Both the position numbers and the translations under genes were made by a program. DNA of 64,000 nt, taken from Pseudomonadaceae bacterium. Its GTDB lineage: Bacteria; Pseudomonadota; Gammaproteobacteria; Pseudomonadales; Azotimanducaceae. Numbering within the stretch: position 1 is the stretch's first letter; each line of letters opens with the position of its first letter. Location of the stretch: assembly GCA_024743175.1 (NCBI GenBank), contig JANSXA010000003.1, forward strand, positions 124,001 to 188,000, in the 5' to 3' direction. Under the pieces are notes generated by a model that saw nothing but the letters and a program-made list of their open reading frames with translations, had not been told where the DNA came from and did no database searches. Positions 9,393-60,478 of the stretch are shown here, piece after piece.

Positions 9393-10508
9393 ATGTTGTT
9401 TAAGAGTGCCTCTGTACCCGTTGCAGAGTTCGAAGAAAAGAGTGGCTGGACGTTCAAGCCTGAAGGTGCGTGCAAAGGCGATGTCTGTATTCCTCTGTCA
9501 GCTGACGTGCTTGAGTCGGAAACTCTAGAGCTGGAAGCCATCACCGAGGCTCTGGGTTTACCAATGCTGGTGGATGAAAAGCATGGTTTGTATGCCGCAG
9601 GCCCCGAGTCAATCGGTGCGCGAGCACTGGTCACCGCTGATGCACCCAGCCTGGTGCTGCCGGACCTTGATGGCCAGCCGTTTGACCTCGCCAGTCTGCG
9701 TGGCCAGAAGGTGATGGTTTACGCCTGGGCACCTTACTGAGGTTGCTCTAATGACCTGCCCGTGTGGCAGGACCTGCGTGATGAACTCCATAAGCAGAAT
9801 TTTGAACTGGTTACTGTAGGCCTGGACACATTGGGTGAACAGGGTTGCCGTACTTATATTGAAGCGGCGGCACCACAACATCCGGCGTTGATTGACCAGC
9901 ACCATGTGCTGGCTGAAAAATTCGGCGTGATCAATATTCCCAGCGCGATCTGGATCAACGAACAAGGGGTCATTGTGCGACCGGCTGAAGCAGCACCTGC
10001 GCCACCCCAACCGCAAACCCAACAGACACCCCCGCCTGCGGCTGATGCGCCACCTATGCCCGAGCGTTTTGTTGAAATGATGGGTGAAGCGGTGAAAATC
10101 AAGTCAGATGCAGAGGCTTATCACGCCGCTCTGCGGGACTGGGTAAAAAACGGTGCTGACAGCCGTTTTGCGCTTTCTCCGGATGAAGTCATTAACCGCT
10201 CGCGTCCGCGCAGTGCAGACGTATCGTTAGGACACGCGCACTTCGACCTGGCCAGCGCGCTGGAGCTGGCGGGCGCGCATGCGCAAGCTGTGCCGCATTT
10301 TCGTAAGGCCCATGAACTGGTCCCTGACAGCTGGACCTTCCGTCGCCAGGCCTGGTCGCTTGAAGAAAACCCGATCCCCGGCCCTATGCAGCGGTTCTGG
10401 CAGGGGCCTTCACCTGAGTCGCCGGAGAGCTGGCCTTATGAGGGCGATTGGTTAAGCGATGTTCGCAAGGTGGGTGCGGAGAACTACAGCGAGCCGTTTA
10501 AACCCTGA
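9393..10508 (+). CDS. redoxin-family selenoprotein (in-frame TGA = Sec116)
   Basis: A 371-residue protein if TGA at 9738-9740 is read as selenocysteine. Residues 1-90 form a conserved lead domain with GACKGDVCIPL. The thioredoxin/AhpC-TSA fold follows (APSLVLPDLDGQPFDLASLRGQKVMVYAWAPY), then Sec116-Gly117-Cys118 and SNDLPVWQDLRDELHKQ; NIPSAIWINEQGVIV carries the fold's cis-proline loop. After a Pro/Ala-rich linker, a TPR-like C-terminus follows (LASALELAGAHAQAVPHFRKAHELVPD). From memory, relatives of this family carry Cys where the TGA falls. The same frame continues 256 codons past the TGA, and a SECIS-like hairpin lies at 9755-9771. An annotation stopping at 9740 and restarting at GTG 9762 would split one gene in two. 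Its substrate is unknown. Confidence 0.85.
9755..9771 (+). promoter_or_regulatory. bacterial SECIS element for the redoxin gene
   Basis: CCTGCC (9755-9760) pairs perfectly with GGCAGG (9766-9771) around the five-base loop CGTGT. The loop begins 20 bases after the TGA at 9738-9740 and has G in its second position followed by U. These features meet the published bacterial SECIS rules: stem of 4-16 pairs, loop of 3-14, G among the first two loop bases, and loop 16-37 bases from the UGA. One A-A mismatch and a further G-C pair extend the stem. It would bind SelB while the ribosome decodes the UGA. Confidence 0.8.
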
Positions 10509-11218: not shown

Positions 11219-12160
11219 TCAGAGTTGGATCGCGTCGCGATTGTGCGGTGCGCTGAAATCCAACTGCGGGCCTTTCGGCAGTATGCCGGGTTTACCGGCA
11301 CCGTAGTAGATGCCTTTGATTGCGCTGACGTCGACAGTTTCAGCAACGCCGGGCAATTGATACAGGTCGCGGGTGTACGGCCAGAGATGTTCAAAGTCCA
11401 GCAACTGATTACGATTGCATTTGAAACGGCTGTAATAAGCCAGATCAAAGCGTATCAGCGTTGAGAACAGGCGCCAGTCAGTTTCTGTCACCTGGTTACC
11501 AAACAAGTATCGGCGAACGGCCAGACGATCATCCAGTTTATCGAGTGTGTTGAACAGGTTGTCGTAGGCTTCTTCGTAAGCGCTCTGCGACTGAGCAAAG
11601 CCGCACCGGTAGACGCCATTGTTCACGTCGGTATAGATGACCTGATTAAGCGCTTCGATCTCCGTGCGCAGCGTCTCAGGGTAGTAATCTGTCTGAGAGA
11701 CGCCTTCAATACCGTTAAACGCATCGTTAAACATGCGCATGATGTCTGCAGATTCGTTGTTCACAATAGTATTGCTGTGGGTGTCCCACAGGACTGGAAC
11801 AGTCACGCGTCCGGTAAACGCTGGATCAGCGTGGCTGTAAACTTCATGTAGATGTTCCACCTGCAGTAATGGCTCCGGCGGATTGTCGAAATGCCAGCCC
11901 TGATCCCCTGCGGCCGCGGCGGTACGAGACAGGCTGACAACGTCATCAAGGTTTTTTATGGATCGGTACAAGATTGTTCGATAGGCCCAGGGGCAGCCGG
12001 CGTTGACAAAAAGATGATAGCGGCCCGGTGCAGCTGGATAACGTCCGTCAGGTGCACCTATCCAATCGCGAAAGGTACTGTTCGGACGCTTGAATCTGCC
12101 ATCAGCCTGATGGCGAGGAAGGTCTTCAGCCTGCCATTGGCCCTTTATCAGCTGTCCCAT
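11219..12160 (-). CDS. glutathionyl-hydroquinone reductase (Xi-class GST)
   Basis: A 313-residue enzyme of the YqjG/EcfG family, which reduces glutathionyl-hydroquinones to hydroquinones with glutathione. The catalytic Cys56 is in NAGCPWAYRT, and the C-terminal GST helical domain follows, including FGNQVTETDWRLFSTLIRFD, a hallmark of the class. The ATG at 12160 (MGQLIKGQWQ) is chosen because it matches the family N-terminus; an in-frame ATG at 12352 would overlap the SDR gene. It sits 10 bases after that SDR and 27 bases before yceH, so it is probably cotranscribed and may serve in quinone or aromatic detoxification. Confidence 0.9.
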   Translation of the reverse strand: MGQLIKGQWQAEDLPRHQADGRFKRPNSTFRDWIGAPDGRYPAAPGRYHLFVNAGCPWAYRTILYRSIKNLDDVVSLSRTAAAAGDQGWHFDNPPEPLLQVEHLHEVYSHADPAFTGRVTVPVLWDTHSNTIVNNESADIMRMFNDAFNGIEGVSQTDYYPETLRTEIEALNQVIYTDVNNGVYRCGFAQSQSAYEEAYDNLFNTLDKLDDRLAVRRYLFGNQVTETDWRLFSTLIRFDLAYYSRFKCNRNQLLDFEHLWPYTRDLYQLPGVAETVDVSAIKGIYYGAGKPGILPKGPQLDFSAPHNRDAIQL

Positions 12161-56760: not shown

Positions 56761-57414
56761 TTAAACAAAGGTTGCCCACTGCTCCAACGGTGCGCGATCG
56801 GAAACAAGACTGTTCACGGGCTTGTCCGGGTTTTTATGTCCCAGCGCGATACCGCAGAACAACATCAGATTATCTGGCGCGCCAACAAAGTGGCGAACGC
56901 TGTTGGCACGCATGGCCCAGGCTTCCTGCGCGCAGGTATCCAGCCCCGCTTCCTGTGCCAGCAGCATGAATGTCTGCAGGAACATACCCAGATCTGACCA
57001 TTGTGGCGGCCCCATCTGCCGGTCAACGAAGCAGAACAAGCCAGCGGGTGCATCAAAGAAAGTGTAGTTGCGCGCCAGGTGCGCAAAGCGCGCAGCCTTG
57101 TCTTCTCTGGGTATGCCCAGCAGTGCATACATGTCTTCACCGACCTTAAACCGCGAATCACGATAGGGTGACGTGAGATCTTTTGGATAGATATCGTATT
57201 CCGGCGTGTCTTTGATGTCGGAAGTCTGCAGGAACTCCAGAAACTTACCCGTTGTTTCACCATTAACGACATAGATGCGCCAGGGCTGCACGTTGCCTCC
57301 AGAGGGTGCTCGAGCAGCCTTTTCCAGCAGCTGAGCAATCACTGAATCTTCAACCGGAGTATCTAAAAATGCCCGGATCGATTTTCGTTGCGCGACAGCG
57401 TCACTGACATTCAT
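56761..57414 (-). CDS. nitroreductase family protein
   Basis: A 217-residue FMN enzyme. RKSIRAFLDTPV at the N-terminus, ARAPSGGNVQPWRIYVV and LGIALGHKNPDKP-like C-terminus (FCGIALGHKNPDKPVN) are family motifs. It reduces nitro compounds, quinones or flavins with NAD(P)H. It overlaps the PNPOx gene upstream by four bases (ATGA) and may receive flavin or substrate from it. Confidence 0.92.
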   Translation of the reverse strand: MNVSDAVAQRKSIRAFLDTPVEDSVIAQLLEKAARAPSGGNVQPWRIYVVNGETTGKFLEFLQTSDIKDTPEYDIYPKDLTSPYRDSRFKVGEDMYALLGIPREDKAARFAHLARNYTFFDAPAGLFCFVDRQMGPPQWSDLGMFLQTFMLLAQEAGLDTCAQEAWAMRANSVRHFVGAPDNLMLFCGIALGHKNPDKPVNSLVSDRAPLEQWATFV

Positions 57415-58160: not shown

Positions 58161-59357
58161 ATGCGCGAAGCTGTCATTGTATCTACTGCTCGTACCCCAA
58201 TTGGTAAAGCTTATCGGGGCGCATTTAATGCCACCCCCAGCCAGGCATTGGGGGCCCATGCCATTCGTCATGCGGTACAGCGGGCAAATATCGACCCTGC
58301 AGAAGTAGAAGACGTGATTATGGGTGCAGCTATCCAGATGGGGTCCGCTTTCTCCAATACCGCGCGCCAGTGTCTGCTTGAAGCGGGCCTGCCGGACAGC
58401 GTGGCTGGCCAGACCATCGACCGCCAGTGTTCGTCTGGCATGATGGCCATTGGTATAGCTGCCAAGCAGATCATCAGCGATGGCATGGATGTGGCCATTG
58501 GTGGCGGGGTGGAGTCTATTTCCATGAACCAGACCGGCGATATGTTTGCCATTCCCAGCCCCTGGGCGCTGAAAAACAAACCCGCCCTGTATATGGCGAT
58601 GCTGGAAACGGCTGAAGTTGTGGGAGAACGTTACAACGTCAGTCGTGAAGCCCAGGATATTCTGTCTGCGAGCTCCCAGGCGCGTACAGCGGATGCTCAG
58701 GCGAGCGGTAAGTTTGATGACGAAATTGTACCCATGTCCACGGTCATGAAGTTTCAGAACAAAGAAACCGGCGAGGTCACCGACTCAGAAGTCACGCTGG
58801 ATAAAGATGAAGGTAACCGTCCAGGAACTACCGCTGAATCGCTGGCTGGGTTGAAGCCGGTTTTTTCTGGTGGTCAGGTGATTGCAGAAGGAAAACATGT
58901 CACTGCGGGTAATGCCTCACAGCTATCGGATGGTGCTTCGGCCTGCGTATTGATGGAAGCTGGCCTGGCTGAAAAACGTGGCTTGCAGCCCTTAGGCGCG
59001 TATCGCGGCATGGCTGTTGCGGGCACTAATCCAGATGAGATGGGTATTGGCCCGGTGTTTGCGGTACCCAAACTGCTGGAAAAAAATGGCCTGAAAGTGG
59101 ATGACATCGGACTGTGGGAGCTGAACGAAGCGTTTGCGGTGCAGGTTGTCTATTGCCGCGATAAGCTGGGTATTCCAGATGAGCTGTTGAATGTGAATGG
59201 TGGCGCGATTTCGGTAGGTCACCCCTACGGTATGTCGGGTTCACGGATGGTGGCGCACGCTCTGATTGAAGGAAAACGTCGCGGCGCCAGGTATGTTGTC
59301 TGCACCATGTGTATTGGTGGTGGCATGGGCGCTGCGGGCCTGTTCGAGGTACTGTAG
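58161..59357 (+). CDS. acetyl-CoA C-acyltransferase (thiolase)
   Basis: A 398-residue thiolase for the last step of beta-oxidation or for acetoacetyl-CoA formation. The nucleophile is Cys90 in [12 protein letters not shown], the active-site His is in [14 protein letters not shown] and the second Cys in [28 protein letters not shown] is the thiolase signature 2 region. A GGAGAAATAA site precedes the ATG. The acyl-CoA dehydrogenases elsewhere in the window suggest a catabolic role. Confidence 0.93.
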
Positions 59358-59376
59358 TCGAGCGAGGCTGGGAAAC

Positions 59377-60111
59377 ATGGCGCACAAAAATGACATGTAC
59401 GGCGACATCAACGCCCGTTCGGAAGATGATGACGGCGTAGCGCCTCCAATTCTCGCCGCCACCGTGGTTCTGCTGCGTGACGGCGAAGAGGGTGTTGAGG
59501 TGCTCATGTTACGCAAGAACTCGAAAATCACCTTTGGCGGTATGTGGGTTTTTCCCGGCGGCAAAATCGACCCTGCAGATCGCGAGCTTGGTACTGACGA
59601 CACCCATGCTGCCCGCATCGCGGCAACCCGCGAGACCCTGGAAGAAACCGGGCTTGTAGTCAGGCCTGACGAGTTCACCTGGTTTGCACACTGGACGCCG
59701 CCACCCGGTCCGCAGAAACGTTTTGCGACCTGGTTTTTTGCAACGTTGTTGGACAGTGACGATGAAGTCGTGATTGATGATGGCGAGATAAAGGAGCACG
59801 CCTGGGTCAGCCCGGCCAAAGCTCTGGAGCGACATGCTGCAGGGGAGATCGATCTGGTGCCACCCACCTGGGTGACGCTTTATCATCTCTCAAGGTATAC
59901 CCCCAGCACTTCGCTGATGTCGCGTTTAACGGAGCAGGAGCCCAGGTATTACGCCACACGCGTGGTGCAGAACTCTGAAGGCACACGCGTTGCGTTGTGG
60001 GAAGGGGATTCCGGCTATGAACCCTGGGATGCTGACGTCGATGGCGAACGCCATCGACTGGTTATGTCGCCAGGCGGGTTCATTTTCGAAAACAGTGTTA
60101 TTGAGTACTGA
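59377..60111 (+). CDS. Nudix hydrolase
   Basis: A 244-residue pyrophosphohydrolase. The Nudix box is split by an insertion: GGKIDPADRELGTDDTHA, then ARIAATRETLEETGLVV carries the REx2EE(T)G part. VTVVLLRDGEEGVEVLML-like opening (AATVVLLRDGEEGVEVLMLR) is typical of the NUDT7/19-like group, some of which cut acyl-CoA. That would suit the thiolase just upstream. ATG at 59377 is used; the longer frame lies inside the thiolase gene. Confidence 0.88.
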   Translation: MAHKNDMYGDINARSEDDDGVAPPILAATVVLLRDGEEGVEVLMLRKNSKITFGGMWVFPGGKIDPADRELGTDDTHAARIAATRETLEETGLVVRPDEFTWFAHWTPPPGPQKRFATWFFATLLDSDDEVVIDDGEIKEHAWVSPAKALERHAAGEIDLVPPTWVTLYHLSRYTPSTSLMSRLTEQEPRYYATRVVQNSEGTRVALWEGDSGYEPWDADVDGERHRLVMSPGGFIFENSVIEY

Positions 60112-60136
60112 CCTGAGTTAGTCAGTAATCATCTGT

Positions 60137-60478
60137 TCAGCCGAATGTTTCGCTGAACGCTTCTTCGTTGAACCCGACTAACAAGGTCTTGCCCACAACA
60201 ATAGTGGGAGAACGCATATTGCCGGTGGCGCCGAGCATGGCGTCTACTGCTTCCGCGGGTGCGTTTTTACCGCCTTTAAAGGTTTGTACTTTTTTACCTT
60301 TGGCTACGGTCATTTTTGAGGCTTTGGCCAGCAAGGCTTCAGCATCTTCACGCTGTAGTTTGCGACTGGCGGGAACGGTCTCTTTCACTTCTATATTACT
60401 GGCTTCCAAAAACTTGGATGCTTTGGTGCAAGTGGTTCAGCCGCCGCGGTAGTAGTACCAATCAACTTTTTTGCTCAT
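60137..60478 (-). CDS. ArsC/Spx-like selenoprotein (in-frame TGA = Sec14)
   Basis: A 113-residue protein of the ArsC/Spx/YffB thioredoxin-fold family if TGA at 60439-60437 is read as Sec. It begins MSKKVDWYYYRGG, then Sec14-Thr15-Thr16-Cys17, TKASKFLEASNIEVKE, and ends SPTIVVGKTLLVGFNEEAFSE. The family usually has Cys-x2-Cys or Cys-x2-Ser here, so Sec takes the place of the nucleophilic Cys in a U-x-x-C redox motif. A gene caller would start at TTG 60409 and lose the active site. A SECIS-like hairpin lies at 60402-60421. Arsenate reductase activity is not implied; the partner is unknown. Confidence 0.85.
60402..60421 (-). promoter_or_regulatory. bacterial SECIS element for the ArsC-like gene
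   Basis: On the minus strand, TCCAA and TTGGA (60418-60414 and 60409-60405) pair around the loop GTTT. An A-A mismatch and two further G-C pairs (GC with GC) extend the stem. The loop starts 23 bases after the TGA and its first base is G. Stem, loop size, G position and distance all meet the bacterial SECIS rules, as they do for the redoxin gene at 9755-9771. Confidence 0.8.

Follow-up and report, generated by a model that had tools for sequence, protein, structure and literature searches.

The minus strand of the analyzed window (the whole 64,000-nt stretch of DNA under study) contains a reading frame with an in-frame TGA codon, and the question raised by this locus is whether the codon ends translation or specifies selenocysteine (Sec). 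The frame opens at ATG 60478, encodes MSKKVDWYYYRGG, crosses the TGA at 60439-60437, continues as TTCTKASKFLEAS and closes at a terminal TGA (60139-60137). These coordinates, proposed in a sequence-only reading of the window, were confirmed on the sequence. When the internal TGA is counted as a residue, the product comprises 113 residues and carries the motif U14-T-T-C17, i.e. the UxxC placed at this codon in that reading. An ORF starting from TTG 60409 (translation table 11) encodes only 90 aa, spans positions +30 to +303 counted from the TGA and lacks the active site; a gene caller taking UGA solely as a stop would lose the active-site half of this gene. The identified features are summarized in Table 1. 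As argued below, the gene very probably encodes a thioredoxin-fold selenoprotein of the NF041106 family, with predicted SelB- and hairpin-dependent insertion of Sec, whose most likely role is that of a selenol/thiol oxidoreductase.

Table 1. Positions of the features discussed in the text (window coordinates, unless preceded by a contig handle).
Feature	Position	Strand	Remarks
ArsC-like selenoprotein gene	60137..60478	minus	113 residues with Sec14, ends at TGA 60139-60137; NF041106 match
In-frame TGA, predicted selenocysteine U14, nucleophile position	60437..60439	minus	aligns with first Cys of Spx CTSC; conserved
TGC codon, Cys17, second residue of UxxC	60428..60430	minus	invariant in 48 alignment rows
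SECIS-like hairpin GC-A-UCCAA-GUUU-UUGGA-A-GC	60402..60421	minus	compensatory changes and low synonymous diversity
TTG, possible start for a Sec-blind gene caller	60407..60409	minus	mechanical ORF
Nitroreductase-family gene	56761-57414	minus	Pfam PF00881
ResA-like WAxxUGC redoxin, predicted selenoprotein	9393..10508	plus	separate gene, same Sec system; NF041054, 489.8 bits (cut-off 300)
selA	C7:276126-277424		518 bits, over cut-off
selB	C7:277463-279289		424 bits, over cut-off
tRNA-Sec	C7:279356-279444		71.7 bits, over cut-off
selD	C7:290569-291483		271 bits, over cut-off

With C substituted for U, the predicted protein matched the NCBIfam model NF041106, "ArsC family (seleno)protein", over the full length of the profile (108.4 bits; cut-off 85). 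A genome search with the same profile gave 100.8 bits for the window gene, also above the cut-off. The gene is a new member of an already catalogued kind of selenoprotein.

The distribution of this family was examined in several sets of genomes. Matches over the cut-off were found in 44 of the 97 genomes of the first set (own genome included), and each of the 44 genes holds exactly one TGA. Near relatives bearing names carry the label Pseudomonadales, K189A clade or Gammaproteobacteria. Nine over-cut-off matches, seven of them already seen, were detected in an order sample of 390 genomes; all have one TGA, as does a further match of 71.9 bits, below the cut-off. In a phylum sample (398 genomes) the window's own genome alone exceeded the cut-off. 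The second set was drawn from another phylum, that of genome G803, which was reached via a contig labelled Desulfuromonadales; here 30 over-cut-off loci were found, distributed over 28 of 395 genomes, again with one TGA in every case. In total, all 76 over-cut-off loci from 74 genomes, including the window gene, contain one TGA, and the sense codon in relatives that the sequence-only reading had named as evidence against itself did not appear. The codon lies at the U14 site in all 72 loci that were read (44 of the first set and 28 of the 30 in the second), and also in a contig of Desulfobulbus rhabdoformis.

The remaining weaker NF041106 matches scored 39 bits or less. No stop was found inside them in the 97-genome and phylum samples, nor among the order-sample matches listed, whereas five of the eight weak matches of the second phylum do contain a TGA (21.7 to 32 bits). 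L132 and the weak matches in genomes G1150, G1053 and G1188 are ArsC-like open frames of approximately 103 aa (24-32 bits) with one TGA inside, and possibly represent another selenoprotein family. L131 and L132, both below the cut-off and without the searched motif, were dropped from the reading of second-set sequences.

A protein alignment of 48 rows was built from 43 of the 44 first-set sequences (L055 was omitted due to its X residues) and L063, L064, L067, L068 and L069. L060, L061, L062, L065 and L066, which duplicate genes under other identifiers, were left out of this alignment and of the nucleotide alignment described below. The invariant residues include W7, Y9 and R11, preceding the TGA, both residues of the UxxC motif (U14 and C17), A20, and K60, G61, N87, R89 and P91. 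Cys also occupies the C17 position in 29 of 30 second-set sequences, with Ser in the remaining one. One second-set member, L126, carries U-A-S-S instead of UxxC; the resolving Cys is thus not kept in every member.

Since the TGA is present in all 44 over-cut-off genes of the 97 genomes, its occurrence is not a matter of chance. A decaying gene in which the TGA arose by nonsense mutation or sequencing error, with a hairpin present by coincidence, would agree with the unexceptional folding of the window hairpin taken alone (see below). However, given these 44 genes, the protein conserved on both sides of the codon (W7, Y9 and R11; C17 and A20) and the same TGA and flanking conservation in another phylum, the probability of such an origin is negligible, and pseudogene and sequencing error were both rejected on the count of 44 out of 44.

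In bacterial selenoprotein genes, the UGA is characteristically followed at a short distance by a conserved hairpin with a G opening the apical loop. The hairpin at 60421-60402 begins 15 nt past the TGA, and its first loop base is G60413. The sequence-only reading had located this structure and its loop G correctly, but the 23 bases that it gave separate the TGA from the loop G. Across relatives the structure is conserved in the manner of a bacterial SECIS, with thin covariation and no significance as a single sequence.

As a single sequence, the window hairpin is unexceptional: a 48-nt stretch gave a z-score of -0.75, with 47 of 200 shuffles at least as stable, and when ten codons were recoded synonymously, 354 of 2000 variants folded at least as well. 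When the 44 first-set hairpins were compared singly with synonymous recodings, the median was 0.175; four were placed in the best 5% and all 44 at or below the median of the recodings. The reality of the structure rests on conservation across relatives, and the hairpin, put forward as evidence from one sequence, has little weight in that form and gains it from the comparison.

Covariation was examined in a nucleotide alignment of the 44 first-set sequences with L063 and L064 (46 sequences, 42 distinct). Standard pairs fill 97.3% of the hairpin pair cells, and two-sided (compensatory) changes occur in three of the seven pairs, a number equalled by none of 500 shuffles. Nonetheless, these changes occupy just 3 of 294 cells, the count of pair types was reached by 37 of 500 shuffles and the RNAalifold covariation term is about zero. 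A structure slid by +1 had a higher covariation score (0.052, compared to 0.039 for the hairpin), but without two-sided changes.

Since the covariation is thin, synonymous constraint constitutes the main evidence for the hairpin. Across the 44 sequences, synonymous diversity of the hairpin codons (+5 to +12) is 0.32 of expectation, compared to a mean of 0.93 for the 95 codons outside +1 to +14 (p 2.6e-6). Every other eight-codon stretch of the gene has a higher value, and the lysine codon at +8 shows zero synonymous diversity. Codons +1 and +2, located ahead of the hairpin, are likewise constrained (0.45 and 0.25). The SECIS-like hairpin of the sequence-only reading is supported by these pairs and codons.

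Hairpins of the second set occupy the same position but differ in sequence; compared with their synonymous recodings, 28 of the 30 sequences folded at or below the median and seven were in the best 5%. The eight-codon synonymous constraint was not significant in this set (p 0.14), with constraint mainly at codons +7 to +9. L068, which seems to be the same gene as L112, is among these 30 hairpin sequences and was dropped for the second-set codon test and for the neighbour test.

Scans of the window with Rfam and for tRNAs gave zero matches. Past the terminal TGA, a strong hairpin (60102-60131, minus strand; -12.4 kcal/mol for 42 nt) was observed where the convergent gene 59266-60111 ends, and may be a terminator.

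Analysis of the host genome revealed all the components searched for: selA, selB, selD and the tRNA-Sec gene (Table 1). An absence of Sec genes from this genome, the other finding that had been named as contrary to a selenoprotein, was therefore not observed. The co-occurrence of the gene with over-cut-off selB was examined in the 97 genomes: 38 contain both, six the gene only, 15 selB only and 38 neither (p 5.9e-9, a value inflated by kinship). For the window's family (61 genomes) the corresponding numbers are 38, 6, 10 and 7 (p 0.033), a modest link. In the six carriers without over-cut-off selB, selA was below the cut-off in three and gave no match in three; these assemblies are 68-91% complete and consist of 90-550 contigs. 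Of two distant carriers, selB exceeds the cut-off in G803, and G802 has only selB pieces below the cut-off.

These results bear on whether the TGA might be read as an ordinary amino acid, through a changed genetic code or near-cognate readthrough. Although the identity of the inserted residue is a prediction, such decoding is extremely improbable: 12 of the 44 genes terminate in TGA, the genome encodes selA, selB, selD and tRNA-Sec, synonymous constraint is strongest at the hairpin, and the Spx residue aligned with the TGA site is the first Cys of CTSC. A changed code was rejected on the basis of the 12 genes ending in TGA. Insertion of Sec remains the preferred reading, and the original proposal of a selenoprotein is borne out by the conserved TGA at a Cys-equivalent site, the conserved hairpin and the NF041106 match.

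The ArsC/Spx-like gene had been counted as a second selenoprotein of the window, and the ResA-like WAxxUGC redoxin at 9393-10508 is indeed also predicted as one by NF041054. Its TGA is located at 9738-9740, and one TGA is present in each of the three over-cut-off genes found in 58 genomes (own included). A CCUGCC-GGCAGG hairpin was noted by eye past this codon, and two weaker TGA-containing relatives of the redoxin were seen in the same genome, on contigs C5 and C14. In a crude scan, coding-like codon usage was also seen on both sides of TGA codons at 11462 (plus strand) and 50515 (minus strand), which may be ordinary stops.

The ArsC/Spx relationship suggested for the predicted protein is reflected in its NF041106 score and in comparisons with solved structures. 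The 48-row profile matched PDB chains of 2m46, a putative ArsC-type protein (E 1.6e-8), and of Spx (E 1.1e-6), with U14 and C17 aligned with the cysteine pair of Spx CTSC. An AlphaFold2 model of the 113-residue protein (pLDDT 87.7) gave Spx 6gho as the first Foldseek match (E 3.6e-4, TM-score 0.55, rmsd 7.1, approximately 20% identity), closely followed by the ArsC-related protein 3gkx_B (TM-score 0.58). Spx and ArsC-related proteins are the nearest solved folds, with TM-scores of 0.52-0.58; the fold match is moderate, since just three Foldseek matches reach an E value of up to 0.001.

Two more specific functions were considered. A selenoenzyme form of arsenate reductase, as opposed to a thiol oxidoreductase of general function, would be in line with the Pfam ArsC match, which lies just above its cut-off (25.8 bits vs 24), and with the ArsC proteins among the weaker fold matches. 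This function is nevertheless unlikely: the 12 NCBIfam matches with E up to 1 do not include TIGR00014 (arsC), the profile search gave the putative ArsC-type 2m46 and Spx as the best relatives of solved structure, and a scan of ten neighbouring proteins named none from an ars operon. Arsenate reductase proper was rejected due to the lack of a TIGR00014 match up to E 1. ArsC arsenate reductase has arsenate-binding arginines; the sole invariant arginines in the 48-row alignment are R11 and R89.

By analogy with Spx, the protein might instead be a redox sensor binding RNA polymerase, in which a U-C switch would replace the C-C switch. In motif and fold the protein comes closest to Spx, but the score with the Spx/MgsR model TIGR01617 was only 36.2 bits, compared to a cut-off of 75, which makes a sensor of this type quite improbable; Spx proper was rejected on the same score.

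We return to a selenol/thiol oxidoreductase, the most likely function judged from fold and motif, in which U14 would be the attacking and C17, by inference, the resolving residue. SelB carrying Sec-tRNA, held by the hairpin just past the UGA, would insert selenocysteine at residue 14. In the presumably cytoplasmic protein, the U14 selenolate would attack a disulfide or other oxidised substrate, the resulting selenenyl-sulfide could be resolved by C17, and a cellular thiol, e.g. thioredoxin or glutathione, might recycle the protein.

The genetic context yields no firm partner for the selenoprotein. In 20 of the 44 loci, each from the window's own genus, the selenoprotein gene is immediately followed by a nitroreductase-family gene in the same orientation. 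In the window this gene lies approximately 3 kb away, separated by Nudix, thiolase and PNPOx-like genes, and no such neighbour was seen in the second set, for which reasons the adjacency was read as local synteny. A choline dehydrogenase gene is located upstream of the selenoprotein gene in the window, and none of the 12 largest neighbour clusters is common to both sets.

Homologs with C-x-x-C at the active site, which the sequence-only reading had proposed to look for, were found only as distant Spx proteins; none exceeded the NF041106 cut-off, which may itself exclude Cys forms. The presence of UGA in 76 of 76 loci from two phyla, with no Cys fallback found, would suggest a reaction for which Cys is no substitute, and it is conceivable, though doubtful, that NF041106 is an obligate selenoprotein family of this kind. 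A further caveat to this reading is the 2008 survey discussed below, with its 238 Cys homologues of what is probably the same family. With no Cys forms found over the cut-off, the family lends itself to the question of why certain proteins require Sec; in other respects it is unremarkable and belongs to a kind of selenoprotein that has been catalogued before.

Comparison with known systems revealed no difference between the window protein and NF041106 (ArsC_rel_Se_1): the score, the full profile length, the UxxC motif and the predicted UGA-encoded Sec are all alike. In the parts of the texts available, an "Arsenate reductase-like protein" with UxxC is listed under NF041106 (PMC13188914) and under COG1393 (PMC9312934), and the functions of these mostly predicted selenoproteins are described as largely uncharacterised (PMC13188914). 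The available part of the 2008 GOS selenoproteome survey (PMC2398784) gives "Arsenate reductase 2" (cd03032, UxxC), with 42 Sec and 238 Cys homologues. This entry shares the ArsC/Spx-type domain and UxxC with the window protein and, likened by these descriptions, is probably the same family, although zero Cys forms over the NF041106 cut-off were found here. The "Arsenate reductase" selenoprotein (TIGR00014), which carries UxxS according to the accessible portion of PMC13188914, has the ArsC superfamily in common with the window protein by name only; the latter has UxxC and no TIGR00014 match. A literature search of titles and the beginnings of abstracts found no relevant publication on an Spx containing selenocysteine. 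Spx of Bacillus subtilis possesses a CxxC redox switch. The window protein shares with it the position of the CTSC motif and the general fold, and differs in its approximately 20% identity, its score below the Spx/MgsR cut-off and the replacement of Cys by Sec.
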